From Pseudobdellovibrionaceae bacterium (GTDB lineage: Bacteria > Bdellovibrionota > Bdellovibrionia > Bdellovibrionales > Bdellovibrionaceae), in contig JAOASS010000004.1 in assembly GCA_030158485.1 (NCBI GenBank), forward strand, positions 62,001-126,000: 64,000 nucleotides of DNA, written 5' to 3'. How positions within the stretch are numbered: position 1 is the first letter of the stretch; every line of letters starts with the position of its first letter. This document shows positions 26,783-37,950 of this stretch, piece by piece. A program made the translations under genes and the position numbers. The notes under the pieces were generated by a model, which made no database searches, was not told the DNA's origin, and saw only the letters and a list, made by a program, of their open reading frames with translations.

Positions 26783-29221
26783 CTAGGGTAGAATTGTACC
26801 ATTATTTATTAAAGTCCCATACGAAATTGAATTGAAGTTTTGATTTAAGAAAGTTCCCGATGCTAAGCTCAAAGAGTCAGAAACATTCAAATTTCCATTT
26901 AGACTCACTGATCCACTTATGATTGCAAAGTCTTGACCAGCCGCTGCCAAATTAAGATTAGTGCTAATCGTCAAAATTGAAGCGGTTTTATTAACTTCAA
27001 TTAAACCACCTAAAAATTGAGTTCCTGTCTGCGATAGAGTTTGAGCAAAAGATCCCGCAAACTCTATCCCTGTCGTTCCCAAAGCACCTGCATTTAAAAA
27101 GTTCACATCTCCGTAGGCTCTGATTTTACCTCCGTTAATTTTATCACCTAATGTTGGTGATTGAAAATTTAAGGTATTGTAAACGTCTAAATATCCTACA
27201 ATTAATCGACTATAAATGTTTGGATTACTACTTCCTGAAAAGTTAACATTGTAAAATTGAATATTTCCGGTCGCAATTGTCGTATTTTGATTAATCGGAT
27301 ATGCAGGATCACCGAAAGAAACTGTTGTAAACGTAAAATCAACTGCGCCTGACGTGTATAAAAAATTTCCATCGAAAATGACATTGTAACCAGAAAACGA
27401 AACAATCCCACCTGTGTTACTTACTTCAATCGATGGCAATACAAGTGGGTTTCTATCTGAAGTAAATGTCTGATTACCAGTCCCAACAAATTTAATAAGA
27501 CCATTTCCACCGTATCCATACTTTGATGCCACATTTGAAAGATTAGGGCCATAAAACAAAATTGTGCCGCTATTAAATTTTTTTCCGAGATTACCTGCAT
27601 CCAAAAAAAAGTTATTCAAAATACTGACTTGCCCACCAGAAAAGCTATGTCCTGAATGACTACCGGTGCCGCCTAATATAAAATTATAAAAAATTGGAGA
27701 ATTCGTAAAAGTATGTGTTGCCGTACCAATGACTGAAGTCGCCATTTTGAAACTACCATTATTATGATTAAACACAGAACTACCAGAAAAGTTAACCATA
27801 CCACTTACAGTTAATAAATTAGAAGGTGCTGTCATCATTCCACCCACTAAAATCAATGGACCTGAATTAATCGATAAATTACCAGTACCACCGACAAAAG
27901 CTCCACCTGCTTGATAAAATCCACTAACTCCATTTAATGTCAGGCTAAATGATAATATTGATAAAGTTCCAGTATACTGAGAGCCTAAACGCAGTCCTGC
28001 AATTGTGACAGGGCTTGATAAGTTCGAGCTACAATTTGGCGAACAAATATCATCGAACAGTACAATACTTCCAGTTGTCGGAGTCGTTCCAGCATTACAG
28101 CTAGCCAAATTAGTTGCAGCTCCCCCACACCAATTTCCAGGCAATGACCACGCATTAGATAATGTTCCCAACCAAGTTCCATTGCCGACAACTTTTACAT
28201 TGATGGTACCAGTAGCTTCTGCGCCTTTTGAGTCTTGAATTGTATAACTAAAAGAGTCTGTTCCATGAAAATCAAAATTAGGTGAATAGGAAATCGCACC
28301 TGCGCTTAAGTTCACTGTTCCATGGGATGCGGCGCTGACACTCGAAACAAATAAAGTATCACCATCTGGATCAAAATCATTACTTTGAGGAGTTGCTGCT
28401 GCAGAGTGAAAGTTTTGAGATCCTCCATTTCGATTCACAAAATAAGTGTCTGCTAAGGTCGTTGGAGGTCGATTCACACGAAACGCGTAAAGATTATTCA
28501 CTGCTGCGATTGTGTTGATATACCTAACAGCTTCGACTTTAACTTTATATTGCAGTCCAGCCGTTAAAGCACAACTTGAAAAATTATACGAAGTGGCCGC
28601 AGTTCCAATCGTTGCACATTTGACCGTCGTATTATCGTCTTCAAAAACTGTGACTAAATAAGATAGCGCGTTCGCTGAAGAGCTCCATTGAATAGTCGGA
28701 AATAATGTTGAATTCAAATTATCATCTACTATGGAATCCGAGCCTCCAACAATTCCAGAAATAGAAAATGAACTTGGAACTAAGTTATCAACAGTTACAA
28801 GACTGCTAGCACCGCCGCCTGAGTCTGGAACTGAAACAATATTCAAAGCTTTACCGGCGGCAACTGATAAAATTTGAACTGTTCCTGACCCCACACAATT
28901 TGAAAGAATTAGTTCGTAGCTTTCAGCGATTGGGTAGGAACTAATTTTATTTAAAACCGTATTACAACTGGCTGAACCCGTCAAAGAAAGGCTGATGTCT
29001 GATATCACCAAGCTAGAAGAAAAAGCTCCTGAATATGTTAATGAAATAGAGTTCATGTCCGTCGCATTAACAAATGCTAAACTTGGATTACCAATGGAAA
29101 GCATAGGCGCAGGGAAAGTCGAAGAAGATTGAAGATCAGAGATACTTTCGACCTCAGGAACGATATTTTCGCAACCAGCTAAAATTAAGATTAAAATAAA
29201 AGAACCAATCAAGCTTTTCAC
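26783..29221 (-). CDS. Large surface lipoprotein with cadherin-like domain and beta-solenoid-like repeats
   Basis: 812 residues. Lipobox LILAGC with Cys at about 17. About 130 residues of variable beta-rich sequence come next, then a fibronectin-like region (ISWSS... FRVNRPP), then a tandem-type cadherin/Big domain (NDFDPDGDTLFVSSVSA, GTDSFSYTIQDSKG; about 280-345). The second half is dominated by short alternating strands with N, G, S, F and I (FNSGTILFYG, IKFVGTGNQTF, INGGKIRAYGDVNF), which look like a right-handed beta helix. Start GTG 29221 lacks a strong ribosome site. Probably exposed on the cell surface; adhesion or matrix role inferred. Confidence 0.7.
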   Translation of the reverse strand: MKSLIGSFILILILAGCENIVPEVESISDLQSSSTFPAPMLSIGNPSLAFVNATDMNSISLTYSGAFSSSLVISDISLSLTGSASCNTVLNKISSYPIAESYELILSNCVGSGTVQILSVAAGKALNIVSVPDSGGGASSLVTVDNLVPSSFSISGIVGGSDSIVDDNLNSTLFPTIQWSSSANALSYLVTVFEDDNTTVKCATIGTAATSYNFSSCALTAGLQYKVKVEAVRYINTIAAVNNLYAFRVNRPPTTLADTYFVNRNGGSQNFHSAAATPQSNDFDPDGDTLFVSSVSAASHGTVNLSAGAISYSPNFDFHGTDSFSYTIQDSKGAEATGTINVKVVGNGTWLGTLSNAWSLPGNWCGGAATNLASCNAGTTPTTGSIVLFDDICSPNCSSNLSSPVTIAGLRLGSQYTGTLSILSFSLTLNGVSGFYQAGGAFVGGTGNLSINSGPLILVGGMMTAPSNLLTVSGMVNFSGSSVFNHNNGSFKMATSVIGTATHTFTNSPIFYNFILGGTGSHSGHSFSGGQVSILNNFFLDAGNLGKKFNSGTILFYGPNLSNVASKYGYGGNGLIKFVGTGNQTFTSDRNPLVLPSIEVSNTGGIVSFSGYNVIFDGNFLYTSGAVDFTFTTVSFGDPAYPINQNTTIATGNIQFYNVNFSGSSNPNIYSRLIVGYLDVYNTLNFQSPTLGDKINGGKIRAYGDVNFLNAGALGTTGIEFAGSFAQTLSQTGTQFLGGLIEVNKTASILTISTNLNLAAAGQDFAIISGSVSLNGNLNVSDSLSLASGTFLNQNFNSISYGTLINNGTILP

Positions 29222-30863: not shown

Positions 30864-31367
30864 ATGAAAAACCGCAAATATGCACTTATGATAACAGTTT
30901 TTGCACTTGTTATGTCCACCCAAACCGCAGTTGCTGCAGATGGTACCGGTACTGCAACAGCAACTATTATTGCTCCAATCACAATTACTCCCGTTCTTGA
31001 TTTAGCTTTCGGTAAATTAAGCGCTAATACAGGTGGTACTGTTGTTATCAGTACTGCTGGTGCACGATCTGTTGGGTCAGGTACTGTTGCTCTTGTTAAT
31101 ACTGGTAGCACTCAAAACCAAGCTACATTTGATATCACAGGTGATGGCGTTTCAACTTACGCGATTACATTACCAGGTGCAGCTGCCACAATCACTTCTG
31201 GCGGTGATACAATGTCGGTTGATACTTTTGTGAGTGATCCTGCTGCTACTGGAACTTTGACTGCAGGCGCTCAAACTGTAAACGTTGGAGGCACTTTAAC
31301 AGTTGGTTCAGGACAAGCGACTGGTTCGTACACTGGGACTTTCACCGTCACAGTAGAGTACAACTAA
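30864..31367 (+). CDS. DUF4402 pilin-like subunit (probable major)
   Basis: 167 residues with an N-terminal signal (MKNRKYALMITVFALVMSTQ, cleavage near AVAA). The mature domain has TITPVLDLAFGKLSANTGGT near the front and VGSGQATGSYTGTFTVTVEY at the end, the two diagnostic ends of DUF4402, an Ig-like fold related to chaperone-usher subunits. No Cys. Start ATG 30864 has AAAGGGAAACC. Downstream come a strong terminator, a second DUF4402 gene, a PapD-like chaperone and an usher-like protein. The terminator right after this gene suggests that it is the most abundant product. Confidence 0.85.
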   Translation: MKNRKYALMITVFALVMSTQTAVAADGTGTATATIIAPITITPVLDLAFGKLSANTGGTVVISTAGARSVGSGTVALVNTGSTQNQATFDITGDGVSTYAITLPGAAATITSGGDTMSVDTFVSDPAATGTLTAGAQTVNVGGTLTVGSGQATGSYTGTFTVTVEYN

Positions 31368-31394
31368 GTTAATTTTTTTGATTAATGATTTTTG

Positions 31395-31427
31395 AAAAAG
31401 AGCTACATTTCGTAGCTCTTTTTTTTC
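31395..31427 (+). terminator. Intrinsic terminator inside the pilus-like operon
   Basis: Perfect 12-bp stem (31395-31406 with 31412-31423), 5-nt loop, then a T run into 31426. It lies 28 nt after the first DUF4402 gene and before the second, so it can reduce downstream transcription and set subunit ratio. Confidence 0.85.
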
Positions 31428-31478
31428 GCGTCCAGTCTTGTTGTGATTTGAAATTCCTTATGACAAAATTTTCTAGTT

Positions 31479-31937
31479 ATGAAGAAATTTTGGGCAAATT
31501 CAGTGCTAATTGTCTTTTTCATGCTTTTGAGTTTATCATCGTATGCTTTGACTGTAACTTCACTCGCTCAACTCTCTTTCGGAAAAATTGCAGCTAACTC
31601 CGGTGGATCCGTTATCCTGTCGCCTGCAGGTAGCCGCACCCGAACAGGAAGTGTCGCCATACTCACATCTGAAACTGGGTCGGCAGCTCGGTTTCGCTTA
31701 CAAGGAAACGCCGGCCTTGCCTATATCGTAACACTTCCTCTTGATAATGATGTGATATTAACTTCAGGTGGAAACTCAATGAGTCTGACCGATTTCACTA
31801 TAAGTCCTGCGAATCCAGGGAATCTAGATGGAGCAGGAGAGCAAATTATTTCACTAGGTGCGACTCTTAATATTGGATCATTAAAACCCCCAGGAGAATA
31901 CAGTGGCACAATTTCTTTCACAGTCGATTATCAATAA
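31479..31937 (+). CDS. Second DUF4402 pilin-like subunit (probable minor)
   Basis: 152 residues: signal peptide MKKFWANSVLIVFFMLLSLS (cleavage near YA), then LAQLSFGKIAANSGGSVILS and LGATLNIGSLKPPGEYSGTI with SFTVDYQ, again the DUF4402 ends. It is clearly a paralog of the gene at 30864 but diverged. ATG 31479 has only a weak ribosome site. It reads directly into the chaperone gene (18-nt gap). Confidence 0.82.
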   Translation: MKKFWANSVLIVFFMLLSLSSYALTVTSLAQLSFGKIAANSGGSVILSPAGSRTRTGSVAILTSETGSAARFRLQGNAGLAYIVTLPLDNDVILTSGGNSMSLTDFTISPANPGNLDGAGEQIISLGATLNIGSLKPPGEYSGTISFTVDYQ

Positions 31938-31955
31938 AAATAGGAATTCTAAAAC

Positions 31956-32798
31956 ATGAAAAAGCAAAATATAAAAAAATACTTTTTATTTACTCTTGTC
32001 TATTTCGCATCTTCTGCGACTTATGCAGCCGCTGGAAGCTTGATGCTCTTTCCAACACGAGCTATATTTAAAAATAATACTCGTGCGATTCAAATCGATT
32101 TAACAAATACGGGGTCAGAACCCGCTTCCTATAGAATTACTTTAGAAAATCGACGAATGACGGAATTGGGGCAATTTATTCCTGCAATTCCTCCCATGCC
32201 CGGAGAATTATCAGCAGACAAAATAATCCAATATTCACCAAGACAAGTTGAGCTTCCTCCTGGCGGAGGACAAACAGTCCGAATTATCCTAAGAAAACCA
32301 GTAGATTTAGCAGTAGGCGAATACCGCACACATATGGTTTTCAATCGTTTGCCAAATCCAAAGGCGAAAAGTCTAGATAACGAAGATAAACAGGAAAGTG
32401 GAATTGGTATCACTCTGACTCCTCTGATTGGGGCTTCTATACCTATTATCGTCGAAAATGGAGAGACAACGGCTAGTACGAGTTTAAAAAACCTCAAATA
32501 TATAAAAGCGAAAAAAAATGAACCTTCACGAATAGAAGTACGTATTGAAAGATCAGGAAATCGTTCAGTTTATGGTGATTTTAAAGTTAAATTTGCACCA
32601 AAAGATGGCGGCGAAAAAGATTTGGCCACTGTGAAAGGAGTTGCTGTTTACGCTCCTTACCCATCACGATTAGCTAAAATCACATTACAAAATGATGAGC
32701 AAAAACCTCTTGTCAATGGGAAATTAGTTGTCGAATTCAGTGAGACTCGAGAAGCCGGGGGGAAAATTCTTTCCGAGACCTCGATTGAAATTCCATAA
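31956..32798 (+). CDS. PapD-like periplasmic chaperone
   Basis: 280 residues with a signal peptide (ending ATYAAA). Two Ig-like domains: LMLFPTRAIFKNNTRAIQID and LTNTGSEPASYRITLENRRM are the first, and the C-terminal part from about 170 is the second. SPRQVELPPGGGQTVRIILR matches the G1-F1 zone of archaic/alternative pilus chaperones (PRxxxLxPGxxQxVR). It would stabilise DUF4402 subunits by strand donation before delivery to the usher. Site AATAGGAATTC before ATG. Confidence 0.88.
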   Translation: MKKQNIKKYFLFTLVYFASSATYAAAGSLMLFPTRAIFKNNTRAIQIDLTNTGSEPASYRITLENRRMTELGQFIPAIPPMPGELSADKIIQYSPRQVELPPGGGQTVRIILRKPVDLAVGEYRTHMVFNRLPNPKAKSLDNEDKQESGIGITLTPLIGASIPIIVENGETTASTSLKNLKYIKAKKNEPSRIEVRIERSGNRSVYGDFKVKFAPKDGGEKDLATVKGVAVYAPYPSRLAKITLQNDEQKPLVNGKLVVEFSETREAGGKILSETSIEIP

Positions 32799-35700
32799 AA
32801 AAATACTGTTATACTCTTTTTTCAATTTTTATTTTTCTTGCTGAGTTTTGCTATTCGGCTAATCCTACAAATAAACTTCTTGATGACCTTCTTCTTTTCG
32901 AAGTTCACCTAGATCGATCAATTTTAGCGCAAGGACTTAACTCCTATCGGGAAGGCTCCTTGATTTTTTTACCACTCGGAGAACTTTCAAGGATTTTAAC
33001 AATTGCGGTTCAAGCAAACTCCGAAGTTAAAACCGCAGAAGGTTTTATTGTAACAGAAGATCGACAATTCTTACTTGATGTCAGTCAGTCAACAGTTGCC
33101 ATCGGAGTACAAAAAACTAACTTTGATCCCAATCTAATTCGCATTCAAGAAAATGAAATTTTTATTGAAAGCACACTTTATCAAAAATGGTTTCCAGTTG
33201 AACTCAGTTTCGACATTCCAGGACTTATGTTGACTGTGACAGCAAAAGAAAACCTACCCATTCAATCAAAAATTGATCGAAGTAAAAAAACAATTTCTGA
33301 AAATGAAACAAGTCATCTTCAATTTATGAACTTTGACACTCCTTACTCAATTCTAGATAAACCTTTCGTAGACCAAACTTTACAACTCAATTCTAATAAA
33401 AAATCAAATTCACAAGTTCAATCATCACTTCAATATACAACACTCTTGTCTGGCGACTTTCTGGGTTTGAAAACCCATTTTATAGCAAATGGTAGTGATC
33501 AGAAAAATTTAGAAAATTACCGATTTAGCATGGGTCGTGACGACCCGGAAGGAAACCTTTTAGGAATCGCAAATGCACGAACTTTTTCTTTTGGTAATGT
33601 CAATTTACCTTCACTGAATTATGTCAATCGTCCGACTTCTTTGGGAAGAGGTGGCTTTATCAGCAATAAGCCCCTCAGTAGACCCAGTCGATATGATTCA
33701 CAAAGCTTTACGGGTGACCTACTTCCTGGTTGGGATGTCGAACTCTTTCAAAATGGTGTTCTCATCGGTTACCAAACATCAAACGATCGAGCTCAATATG
33801 AATTTAATGATCTGCCCCTTTACTTTGGGGGAAATGATTTCAGACTTATCTTCCACGGTCCAACCGGACAAATGAGAGAAGAACGATATCGATTTATGTT
33901 AGAAGACTCAATGGTACTACCAGGTGAAACCTATTATTCGCTCGGCGCAGTACAGTTCGAAGACGGTCGAAAAAGAACTCTGATGCAGATCGACCAAAGC
34001 TTGCTTACACAACTTTCGACAACATTTGGCATTGTCGCAAATGACGTTTCTTCTGTATCAAACGATATCAATACAACGGGTGCGTATCGACCCAACTTAT
34101 CTTATTATAATTTAGGTTTAAGGTCTTACTTAGACTCAGTTTTCTTAAGCGCGGATGGAATTTTAACAAGTGATGAAGGTTCATTAGGCTCACTTTCTCT
34201 TAAAACTGGATTCTGGAATTCATCATTTTCAATTTCTCATGCTGTTTTAGAAAATTTCATAAGCGAAGATTTTCTTCCTTCTGATGATTTGGAAAATGAA
34301 CGATCTAAAGCTCGATTTGATACTTTTGTTTTTAAAATGCCATTTTCATTAGAAGGTACTCGTTCACATTTAACTTCAGGACAAGTCAACTATGATGTCT
34401 CAGCGAAAGTGTCTGCTTATATAAAAAGTATTTCAATTACTCATCGATTAAAATATCTGCATAGCCCAGGACTTAATTCAACTTCCGGTGAACTTCAAGT
34501 TAGCAGTCGTGTTGGTCGATTTCAAATCAGAGGTGGATTAACTTATGAAATAGAACCTATTTCAAGAACGACTTCGATCGATTTAAATGGAAATATTCGC
34601 CTCAATCGGGAGTTTAATTTTACACAAAGTATTTCAAGCCAAATGCAGTCAAATGAATCTCGACTTGAACTTGGTATTAATAAAGAAATTGGCGAATACG
34701 GACTTGGTATTACAACTGGTGGTACAAATTTAGGCGAACAGTTTGTAGGGTTTAGACTGAATATCGGTATTGGTGTTGAGCCCAGAAGATCCAAACTTTA
34801 TACAAGCGCACAGTCGATGGCTACAACAGGAGCCGTTTCTGCCTTAGCTTTTTTAGATCATAATTTAAATGGACAGTGGGACGCTGATGAAGATTTGCTT
34901 CCTGGAGTTGGCTTTAGAGTCGATGGTGGCATGAGTCCCATTCGAACTGAAGACGATGGAGTTGCACTCTTAACACATCTGCCGACAGGACAAAGAATCA
35001 ATATTGGAATTGATCGCAATACAATCGATGATCCACAAGTAAGTCCTTTTATAAAAGGCGTACGGCTTTTACCTCGTCCAGGAAAAATTGCTGAAGTGAA
35101 TTTTCCATTTATCAGAACAACTGAAATAGATGGAATTATTTCAATCGATAACGGTGTAGAAACAAAACCTGCATCTGATATTCAACTTGAACTGGTCGAA
35201 TTTTCCGACAAAGAGCAAGTTGTCAGAGAAACGAGTACAGCTTTCGATGGATATTACATATTAGATGAAGTTCCTCCGGGAAAATATATTTTACGTATTG
35301 AATCTGAACAAGCTGCACGATTGAATATTGCAGTACCGGATTTAAAAGTTTTACGAATTTTACCTCACTCAAATTTTATAAACGGGCTCGACTTTATACT
35401 GAAAAGGTATTCCCAAAAAGCAGACGACGTTATCGAAAACCAACCTCTTCTTATCTCGCCTGAGCTGAATACAGAAATGGAAGATCTTTACTTTGTTATT
35501 CTAGGCTCTTTCGCTCTCGAAAGAAGTTTCGAGCCTCTGACGACGAAACTAGTTCAACTCAAAATTCCTTATGTCGTGAATCAGTTCAGTCGACCTTTAA
35601 AAGTTTTTAGAATACAAACCGAGTTTGAAACCGAAGCTCTTGCGCAAGTTTTCATGGAAACCTTAACAACTTATGAATACTCGTTTGGAAAACAAGAAGA

Positions 35701-35962
35701 CGTCGGTAAAATTAAAATTTTCATAGGACCTTATTATTCCGAAAATGAACTCCAAAAAGAAAAATCCGTCATCACTGCGGCTTTTCCAAACGTGAAAATG
35801 AAAATGACAAGCAATGTTGAATCTCTTGATATGAATGAAATTGCTGTTGGTGGCTTTAACAGCCAAAAAGAGGCCACTGATTTCGCTTCAGTTATCAAAA
35901 AATATAACTTTAATGATATCACAATCCAAAAAAGACCAAACAAACAATGGAAGTCACCTTGA
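32795..35962 (+). CDS. Usher-like outer-membrane protein with C-terminal SPOR-like repeats (apparent ATA start)
   Basis: If started at ATA 32795 the protein is 1055 residues and begins KKYCYTLFSIFIFLAEFCYS, a proper signal peptide with cleavage before NPT. The first canonical start (TTG 32960) would delete the signal, and no ATG, GTG or TTG is in frame between the upstream stop (32786-32788) and it. Then come an N-terminal domain, a plug-like segment (LPGWDVELFQNGVLIGYQTS, FNDLPLYFGGNDF), a long beta-barrel zone, a carboxypeptidase-regulatory-like domain (DGYYILDEVPPGKYILRIE) and, from about 35480, two or three SPOR-like units (YFVILGSFALER; EIAVGGFNSQKEATDFASVI). ATA overlaps the chaperone TAA as ATAA. 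It would secrete the DUF4402 fibre. Confidence 0.75.
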   Translation: MKKYCYTLFSIFIFLAEFCYSANPTNKLLDDLLLFEVHLDRSILAQGLNSYREGSLIFLPLGELSRILTIAVQANSEVKTAEGFIVTEDRQFLLDVSQSTVAIGVQKTNFDPNLIRIQENEIFIESTLYQKWFPVELSFDIPGLMLTVTAKENLPIQSKIDRSKKTISENETSHLQFMNFDTPYSILDKPFVDQTLQLNSNKKSNSQVQSSLQYTTLLSGDFLGLKTHFIANGSDQKNLENYRFSMGRDDPEGNLLGIANARTFSFGNVNLPSLNYVNRPTSLGRGGFISNKPLSRPSRYDSQSFTGDLLPGWDVELFQNGVLIGYQTSNDRAQYEFNDLPLYFGGNDFRLIFHGPTGQMREERYRFMLEDSMVLPGETYYSLGAVQFEDGRKRTLMQIDQSLLTQLSTTFGIVANDVSSVSNDINTTGAYRPNLSYYNLGLRSYLDSVFLSADGILTSDEGSLGSLSLKTGFWNSSFSISHAVLENFISEDFLPSDDLENERSKARFDTFVFKMPFSLEGTRSHLTSGQVNYDVSAKVSAYIKSISITHRLKYLHSPGLNSTSGELQVSSRVGRFQIRGGLTYEIEPISRTTSIDLNGNIRLNREFNFTQSISSQMQSNESRLELGINKEIGEYGLGITTGGTNLGEQFVGFRLNIGIGVEPRRSKLYTSAQSMATTGAVSALAFLDHNLNGQWDADEDLLPGVGFRVDGGMSPIRTEDDGVALLTHLPTGQRINIGIDRNTIDDPQVSPFIKGVRLLPRPGKIAEVNFPFIRTTEIDGIISIDNGVETKPASDIQLELVEFSDKEQVVRETSTAFDGYYILDEVPPGKYILRIESEQAARLNIAVPDLKVLRILPHSNFINGLDFILKRYSQKADDVIENQPLLISPELNTEMEDLYFVILGSFALERSFEPLTTKLVQLKIPYVVNQFSRPLKVFRIQTEFETEALAQVFMETLTTYEYSFGKQEDVGKIKIFIGPYYSENELQKEKSVITAAFPNVKMKMTSNVESLDMNEIAVGGFNSQKEATDFASVIKKYNFNDITIQKRPNKQWKSP

Positions 35963-35973
35963 TCATGAGTGGT

Positions 35974-37950
35974 TTAAAAATACCAGTAGCTGAAGACTCC
36001 AAAACTGTCACTTTTAAGACGAGTCCCCAATTGAAAAGACTTAAAAAATGACTTTCTATACTCAACCAGATAATCTTCGTATCTTCTACGATTTAATGGA
36101 TACTCTTGACCATAATAGACGAGTATTGAATCAAAATCACTAAATCGATGCAAGATTCCAACTTCAACTCCGGGGGCAAAGTAGTCTTTCGAATCTGTCA
36201 GCGAGTCACTGTATCTAAGGTTGGCCCTTAACATTGCCCAAAACATTGATCTATTATTTGAAGCGAATAAATTTTTTGTAAAACCGTACTTAGCTAAAGC
36301 ACCGTAAAGCAAGCACTGTCCATTCGAGCTGTCGCAGTACTTCGGCTTATTTTGAATTCCCAAATCAAATCCCCATGATGGCTTTGTTTCAAAAAAATTG
36401 ACGGGATTTAAATTGAGAACTTTAAATAAACTAAACTCTTCCAAGTATAATCGAGACTGTTGAGAGCGAAAGCTAAAATTAAAAAATTCAAGTTGAGAAT
36501 TACGCGGCAATCCCACTTGATAATCAAGTAAATCATGAAGTGCAAATCGATAATCGAGCAAAGCATAATTTTTTTCATCTCGATTTAAAAAAGAAACTCC
36601 TAAACGAGACGAGCCATGAGAATTGGCAGGCTGTTCATTCATCTCAATCGGCAAGTCTACTGGCTTCGAAATATAATTAATTTTAGCACGCTGGCTTAGT
36701 AAAAATTCTTTTTTCAAATAAAGAGTTTTGTTTTTTTCTAAGGTGATTTGTGGGTTTTTTAAGTCAAATAAATCAATCGCAGCATCTAAAAACAAAGATT
36801 TTTGTTCATCACTTAGATCAGTAAAAAAAACTTCTGATGCAGGATCTGCTTTTGCGTAGTCCGCAAATCTCTGTTTAACATGAGGCTCAAGACGGTGGGC
36901 TCTTTCTAAAAAAACCTGGCGAATACTAGGACGATAAGAAATATTTCCGACTAAACCAGGTTCGTAAAACAAAGCTTTTAATGAATCTGCAGGAATCACG
37001 TAGTAAAAAGGTACATTTTCAATTAAATGTAATCTAGGCGCCGCCGCTTCAAGTAAAGTGAGCATATGGAATGCGCAGTTTTGAGTAAAAAAATAGTATG
37101 TGTAGTAATGAGATCCCACTTCCCAAAGATGAAGAGTCAACATTTCAACTTCATCCGGTGTCAAATTTAAATCATAAGACCATAAATCACGCGATTCAAA
37201 ATCATTATACTCTCGGACTTTATAGTAATAAGGAACGTTGGACCAAGATCCTTTAAAACCCCCGACTAAACCCAATACTGCATATAAAAAGCCATTTGAA
37301 GTTGTTACGTTCGCAGCATACCCGACTCCGTAATCAAGAAGTTCTTGCTTATTTAAGCCACCATTTTCTTTTCGATTCATTCGAAAAAAAGTATGCCCAA
37401 AAGCAGATCCAGGACTGTCTGAATAGTAGGATGAAAAAACATAACTAACTGACTGAACAGAAAGGGCTTCCAAGTATATTTTTTGAAAAACACAATTAAC
37501 ATCTGGCAATTGAGACCAATAATCACGGGCTTCTGGTAATTCCTTTTTTAAAAATTTTAACCGTGCAGGAAATAAGCAAATCGGGTGCTGACTATGATCC
37601 ACTATTTTATTTGCTACTTTTTTCAATTGAGCCGTCGGCGCATCAATCATTTTTTCATATGTAGCTGCCGGCAAAGTAAAAGCTTGCAAAGTCGCTTCAA
37701 TTTCTGTCAATTGATTTAATATTTCTAAATTTGATAGTTGAAATTTTAGATCTGTTACTTGTGTCGACTTAAGGCCGATGACATTGGGTTCAATGTGCAT
37801 TAACTTTTTCCAAGCTCTTGATTCGGATATTTGCTTTAAATTAGCTAAATCGAGGACTTGCCTAAGACCTGAATTTTCAGCCTGAGCTTTTTGAATTGAA
37901 GAAGTTAAAACCAATACCAGCGGAAAAAGAAAAGTCCCAAAATTTTTCAT
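35974..37950 (-). CDS. DUF4105/Lnb-type outer-envelope protein
   Basis: 658 residues with a signal peptide (NFGTFLFPLVLVLTSSIQKA). The central domain contains SVSYVFSSYYSDSPGSAFGH, TFFRMNRK, GYAANV and HYYTYYFFTQNCAFHMLTLL, the pattern of the Lnb N-terminal periplasmic domain (DUF4105, cysteine/histidine-containing, papain-like in outline: His in FGHTF, Cys in QNCAFH). The C-terminal ~250 residues have beta-strand and aromatic patterning that suggests an outer-membrane barrel. Peptidase or lipoprotein N-acylation activity (as for Lnb) is an inference. The start codon lies in a hairpin. Confidence 0.8.
   Translation of the reverse strand: MKNFGTFLFPLVLVLTSSIQKAQAENSGLRQVLDLANLKQISESRAWKKLMHIEPNVIGLKSTQVTDLKFQLSNLEILNQLTEIEATLQAFTLPAATYEKMIDAPTAQLKKVANKIVDHSQHPICLFPARLKFLKKELPEARDYWSQLPDVNCVFQKIYLEALSVQSVSYVFSSYYSDSPGSAFGHTFFRMNRKENGGLNKQELLDYGVGYAANVTTSNGFLYAVLGLVGGFKGSWSNVPYYYKVREYNDFESRDLWSYDLNLTPDEVEMLTLHLWEVGSHYYTYYFFTQNCAFHMLTLLEAAAPRLHLIENVPFYYVIPADSLKALFYEPGLVGNISYRPSIRQVFLERAHRLEPHVKQRFADYAKADPASEVFFTDLSDEQKSLFLDAAIDLFDLKNPQITLEKNKTLYLKKEFLLSQRAKINYISKPVDLPIEMNEQPANSHGSSRLGVSFLNRDEKNYALLDYRFALHDLLDYQVGLPRNSQLEFFNFSFRSQQSRLYLEEFSLFKVLNLNPVNFFETKPSWGFDLGIQNKPKYCDSSNGQCLLYGALAKYGFTKNLFASNNRSMFWAMLRANLRYSDSLTDSKDYFAPGVEVGILHRFSDFDSILVYYGQEYPLNRRRYEDYLVEYRKSFFKSFQLGTRLKSDSFGVFSYWYF

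Follow-up and report, generated by a model that had tools for sequence, protein, structure and literature searches.

A chaperone–usher operon with DUF4402 subunits, and the pairing of its usher family with SPOR domains

The locus described here raises the question of whether two DUF4402 proteins, a PapD-like chaperone and a large outer-membrane protein, encoded one after the other, assemble a surface fibre of the chaperone–usher kind, and of what SPOR-like units would do at the C-terminus of its usher. All four collinear genes that a sequence-only reading had placed at 30864–35962 of the window (the whole stretch of DNA analysed, 64,000 nucleotides) are present as ORFs with Pfam matches (Table 1). 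The answer that we favour, with a probability of about 0.6, is that they form a DUF4402-branch operon for a chaperone–usher pilus or thin fibre, whose assembly platform would be tethered to peptidoglycan.

Table 1. Features of the DUF4402 chaperone–usher locus, in window coordinates.
Feature	Position	Strand	Details
DUF4402 subunit 1	30864..31367	+	167 aa; PF14352 E 3.7e-31
Hairpin and T-run between subunits 1 and 2, terminator or attenuator	31394..31424	+	-16.3 kcal/mol, z -5.15
DUF4402 subunit 2	31479..31937	+	152 aa; PF14352 E 7.7e-29
PapD-like periplasmic chaperone	31956..32798	+	280 aa; PapD_N E 0.0015
Outer-membrane usher	32795..35962	+	~1055 aa from presumed ATA start
Usher beta-barrel with inserted plug region	33329..34807	+	residues 157 to ~649 of the mature-protein model; DSSP strands, VIA matches to FimD/PapC
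Usher C-terminal domains (SdrD_B/CarboxypepD_reg-like)	34829..35407	+	model residues ~657-849; Pfam, DSSP, VIA
C-terminal extension with SPOR homology	35426..35959	+	PF05036 E 6.4e-7, 30.1 bits, in three stretches

The usher reading frame is open from 32789, and the ATA at 32795, which overlaps the stop codon of the chaperone gene in the geometry ATAA, is the sole start that retains the usher signal peptide (MKKYCYTLFSIFIFLAEFCYSA-NPTN); no ATG, GTG or TTG does so, and the listed start, a TTG at 32960, would leave out the signal peptide together with conserved residues of the N-terminus. In the homologous locus L127 the chaperone/usher junction has the same 4-base overlap, with an ATG start. 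The ATA could be a rare initiation codon that limits usher expression, or a sequence error. The terminator that had been read after the first subunit gene corresponds to a real hairpin, to which no shuffled sequence came equal; a simple consensus terminator scan did not list it.

Two neighbouring genes lie on the opposite strand. One, at 35974–37950 (-), converges on the usher gene and encodes a 658-aa Lnb_N/DUF7840/DUF7843 protein related to the lipoprotein N-acyltransferase Lnb, with a second homologue on another contig (C22) of the same genome; the other, at 26783–29221 (-), encodes an 812-aa probable lipoprotein with Big_9/cadherin-like domains, a possible surface protein.

Predicted folds of the usher, the chaperone and the subunits

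No match to Pfam PF00577 was found in the window usher itself, phmmer against the PDB returned nothing and a profile search matched only a C-terminal TTR-like domain. The empty PF00577 and phmmer searches would suit an unrelated outer-membrane barrel encoded beside the DUF4402 genes, a reading that we dropped and to which we give practically no credence, as it is contradicted by usher-specific structure and profile matches and by the conserved linkage to a PapD-like chaperone. In an AlphaFold2 model built from an alignment of 62 relatives, most of residues 1–850 lie above pLDDT 85; Foldseek placed FimD (3rfz) first (E 1e-26), and the first 15 VIA matches were all FimD or PapC (Z 17.2–20.6, the next family reaching 15.6). 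The VIA matches span residue 157 to ~850, and residues 1–156 form an N-terminal domain, none of which VIA aligned to that of FimD. The predicted structure is that of an usher barrel, as had been supposed, and comprises the barrel, plug and C-terminal domains that mark ushers of the chaperone–usher superfamily. As hhalign gave no informative result with FimD or EcpC as single sequences, a multi-sequence set of archaic ushers, two members of which were confirmed by PF00577, was used instead, and the usher profile aligned to it over 508 columns with a probability of 98.2 (E 3.3e-14).

Two features by which the sequence-only reading had set this protein apart from classical ushers did not hold up. 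The carboxypeptidase-regulatory-like domain is what ushers ordinarily have at the C-terminus, since every relative scanned, and an archaic usher too, shows SdrD_B or carboxypeptidase matches, and the protein, taken to exceed the classical size of about 800 aa, measures about 870 residues without its tail, a normal usher size.

The PapD_N match of the window chaperone lies below the cutoff. That of a relative (locus L031) reaches 25.8 bits, above the cutoff of 23, and a profile of the 51-member chaperone family matched both FimC (E 7.7e-4) and archaic chaperones (E 1.6e-5); through these matches the protein is placed, as proposed, among the two-domain PapD-like chaperones. Alignment with FimC suggests that it retains the Arg found at position R8 of classical chaperones, and a conserved Glu-Tyr-Arg appears to line up with the archaic Tyr-Arg. 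Non-classical chaperones are reported to be marked by an Arg in strand F of domain 1 that anchors the carboxylate (PMC4654587).

Pfam confirmed both DUF4402 proteins, which are 39% identical to each other. Subunit 1 has a signal peptide, followed by a ~15-residue N-terminal extension and the pilin core, and ends in Tyr-Asn; in subunit 2, aligned with subunit 1 and relatives, the core directly follows the signal peptide, with no extension, and the C-terminus is Tyr-Gln. Tyrosine followed by one residue, the usual pilin ending, closes 130 of 164 DUF4402 ORFs, and tyrosine is the last residue in 15. The AlphaFold2 model of subunit 1 (pLDDT 94.9) was matched best in Foldseek by chaperone–usher pilins (probability up to 1.00, E no better than 0.007), CfaB among them. 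All 50 of the VIA matches listed, which include CsuA/B, were chaperone–usher pilin or adhesin chains, at Z 6.0–7.8, a range below 8 in which fold matches can be generic and are weak by themselves; we read DUF4402 as a pilin despite this because the list of matches is so uniform. The fold predicted for subunit 1 matches that of donor-strand pilins, in keeping with the sequence-only reading, and the DUF4402 subunits combine the Ig-like pilin fold with the C-terminal Tyr-x of the chaperone–usher superfamily.

By a crude count over 62 loci, 57 have extended subunits and 15 have short ones. We propose that the N-terminal extension of subunit 1 may be the donor strand, and that the short subunit 2 may be a tip or terminal subunit. 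Beside this tip reading we set the Holophagaceae loci of Geothrix and relatives (L103, L104, L110, L113), which in place of the short subunit encode, 3' of the usher gene, ~313-residue proteins with two DUF4402 domains, likely two-domain tip adhesins.

Distribution and phylogeny of the DUF4402 systems

Clusters of one to six DUF4402 genes, a chaperone and an usher were found in dozens of genomes, which belong to Bdellovibrionota, Acidobacteriota, Alpha-, Beta- and Gammaproteobacteria and further groups. The 80 named loci come from Bdellovibrionota, Acidobacteriota, Alpha- and Gammaproteobacteria, Zixibacteria, Chlorobi and Nitrospinota, and the cluster is also present on plasmids of Polaromonas, Sphingopyxis, Novosphingobium and Pseudoalteromonas. 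Within the window's own order it is rare, DUF4402 being found in 7 of 141 genomes, and it recurs across the phylum. In a tree that samples only four archaic ushers, the DUF4402 ushers group together as a single clade (bootstrap 98), which falls on the non-classical, archaic/alternative side. This monophyly, together with the wide operon conservation seen in the survey of DUF4402 neighbourhoods, lends support to the claim of a new chaperone–usher branch.

The homology of the usher profile to archaic ushers, the closeness of the chaperone to archaic ones and the match of the DUF4402 model to CsuA/B, among others, could also be explained by an ordinary archaic (sigma/Csu-type) pilus with pilins too diverged to be recognised. 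We consider this highly improbable, since the DUF4402 usher clade stands, with 98% support, apart from both the SCPU ushers and EcpC, the pilin family is DUF4402 and not SCPU, and the chaperone, as aligned with FimC, also retains the Arg at the classical position. Within the separate DUF4402 branch that we favour, the window usher is sister to the usher of a betaproteobacterial Polaromonas plasmid (support 0.997), which suggests horizontal transfer. The genes that flank the window operon are on different contigs in the sister species, so that no insertion site could be shown.

Other Bdellovibrionota genomes (L088, L091–L094) carry operons of the archaic type, in which chaperone and usher genes are followed by that of an SCPU two-domain adhesin. 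In another genus of the family (genome G050, locus L007, 234–380) we found, at a contig edge, a short usher fragment with 57% identity over 49 residues and an internal stop, possibly a relic.

RefSeq names these ushers carboxypeptidase regulatory-like, SdrD B-like or hypothetical, and neither "DUF4402" nor "PF14352" was found in the 5.39 million open-access papers searched. The evidence supports the view that the DUF4402 systems are a chaperone–usher branch that has gone unrecognised in databases, and that the usher–SPOR pairing recurs in other bacteria. Chaperone–usher pili are among the best-studied surface fibres, and this branch has been hidden under the names "DUF4402" and "carboxypeptidase regulatory-like". 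To recognise the branch is to assign a function to a family that had none, and to a large number of ushers annotated as hypothetical, some of which are encoded on conjugative plasmids or in lineages of predatory bacteria.

SPOR domains in and beside the usher genes

The claim of SPOR-like units at the usher C-terminus was borne out when the 178-residue tail was searched in isolation, its score exceeding the PF05036 cutoff of 21; within the full-length usher the domain scores 20.9 bits against a cutoff of 21.0, and the first unit alone reaches only E 0.16. The tail probably consists of two divergent SPOR units, at about 35483–35700 and 35705–35944. A phmmer search with the tail matched no SPOR structure, and in the AlphaFold2 model the tail falls under pLDDT 50, with no aligned relatives. 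No SPOR tail was found in any other usher of the phylum in a phylum-wide search, and because close relatives (Polaromonas, other Bdellovibrionales) have ushers without it, the tail seems dispensable for assembly. On the phylum search the tail could be taken as peculiar to the window, an idea that we gave up once matches had turned up on a plasmid and in gammaproteobacteria.

A SPOR tail is also carried by a 1062-aa usher of Pseudoalteromonas, and the operon of P. xiamenensis lies between SPOR genes, one of which overlaps the usher gene. An usher search of 395 genomes of one gammaproteobacterial order, with a query from a SPOR-tailed usher and matches aligned to the core only, gave matches in 31, mostly ORFs of 950–1230 aa. 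Twenty loci with flanks and two Pseudoalteromonas loci were scanned with a locally built SPOR profile, which found SPOR in the usher in 11 of the 22, separate SPOR genes in 12 and one or both in 19. With Pfam, SPOR was found in 9 of 21 usher tails, where it was the only Pfam family, and in 19 of 21 flanking proteins, and most of those flanking proteins that were read resemble coiled-coil lipoproteins. At a background of 1.37 SPOR matches per Mb, a 14 kb locus would be expected to contain about 0.02 separate SPOR genes, against the 12 of 22 loci observed to have one; the binomial value of 1e-15 overstates the significance of this enrichment, the loci being related. The local profile missed the window tail and is less sensitive than Pfam, so that counts of SPOR around other loci may be too low. 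Among the flanking ORFs of the named multi-phylum loci (L095–L174), SPOR was not one of the commonest families. The L123 tail looks SPOR-like by eye and was left out of the counts for lack of a Pfam match. In the L095–L174 flanks, 4 of 115 ORFs carry peptidoglycan amidase domains (Amidase_3/AMIN/LysM), possibly another link to the wall, perhaps only from related strains.

The window usher is placed far from the gammaproteobacterial SPOR ushers in the tree, and its tail would thus most simply be an independent gain. Other modules are found at the same position: a Nitrospinaceae DUF4402 usher has a C-terminal ShlB-type POTRA_2 domain (L124, 7530–8015, E 1.3e-16), which no two-partner secretion barrel follows, a Thermoanaerobaculia usher has a TPR tail (L101, 5200–6012), and that of L030 has a Pro-rich one. 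A position that accepts such various periplasmic modules, together with the modest score of the SPOR match and the degenerate unit, leaves room for a working DUF4402 pilus whose SPOR-like tail serves protein contacts, such as gating the intake of chaperone–subunit complexes or holding a periplasmic partner, or is decoration, and does not bind peptidoglycan. We regard this as a serious alternative, if an unlikely one: that SPOR is the sole Pfam family in the gammaproteobacterial tails, and that separate SPOR genes flank the operons, suggests selection for a SPOR function. We therefore favour the reading in which SPOR would tether or position the assembly platform. Wall anchoring gains independent support from the recurrence of SPOR genes and SPOR tails in the gammaproteobacterial relatives, and the comparative evidence suggests that peptidoglycan-tethered pilus assembly may be a repeated feature of the branch.

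Proposed assembly and comparison with known systems

In the model that we propose, the DUF4402 subunits would be secreted and then capped by the PapD-like chaperone, and the usher would polymerise and export them by donor-strand exchange, with the extended subunit 1 as the polymerising subunit and subunit 2 as the tip or terminal one. Both ends of an usher are periplasmic, as established for FimD, so that the SPOR tail could reach the wall; it would bind glycan strands there and hold the platform in place, perhaps where amidases strip the glycan, as at the septum or pole. Between them, the terminator that follows subunit 1 and the weak start of the usher gene may hold usher levels low compared with those of the subunit. 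A wider proposal, which we advance tentatively and hold at somewhat short of even odds, is that the DUF4402 systems are a further major chaperone–usher branch, spread over several phyla and conjugative plasmids, in which SPOR domains anchor the platform to peptidoglycan and place pili at sites of wall remodelling, either as part of the usher, through fusions that arose more than once, or within lipoproteins encoded in the flanks. The usher–SPOR link poses the question of whether ushers are anchored to, or positioned by, the cell wall.

As in SPOR proteins of the FtsN, DamX and RlpA type, a PF05036 domain would be exposed in the periplasm, whereas here it is fused to, or encoded beside, a pilus assembly platform, an arrangement of which we found no description in the literature searched. 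With classical type 1 and P pili (FimD, PapC) the system shares the usher fold (Z up to 20.6), a PapD-like chaperone and Ig-like Tyr-x pilins, but the DUF4402 ushers split off from the classical ones (FimD, SfmD, HtrE, ElfC, YbgQ, YehB) with support 100 and show little sequence similarity to them. As for the alternative pathway (alpha, CFA/I, ECP), EcpC is the nearest non-DUF4402 usher in the tree (support 90, long branch) and CfaB resembles the DUF4402 pilin in fold; in contrast, the DUF4402 branch forms a separate clade without a CS1-type pilin, and EcpC, at 841 aa, has no such tail. The archaic pathway (sigma, Csu/CupE-type, SCPU pilins) has a homologous usher and chaperone and a matching pilin fold, and the alignment points to the same non-classical Tyr-Arg in chaperone strand F. 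The window branch differs from it in that Pfam finds DUF4402 instead of SCPU (PF05229) pilins, in that its ushers fall outside the archaic clade (support 98, with only four archaic ushers sampled), and in having SPOR, POTRA or TPR usher tails and several tandem subunits.
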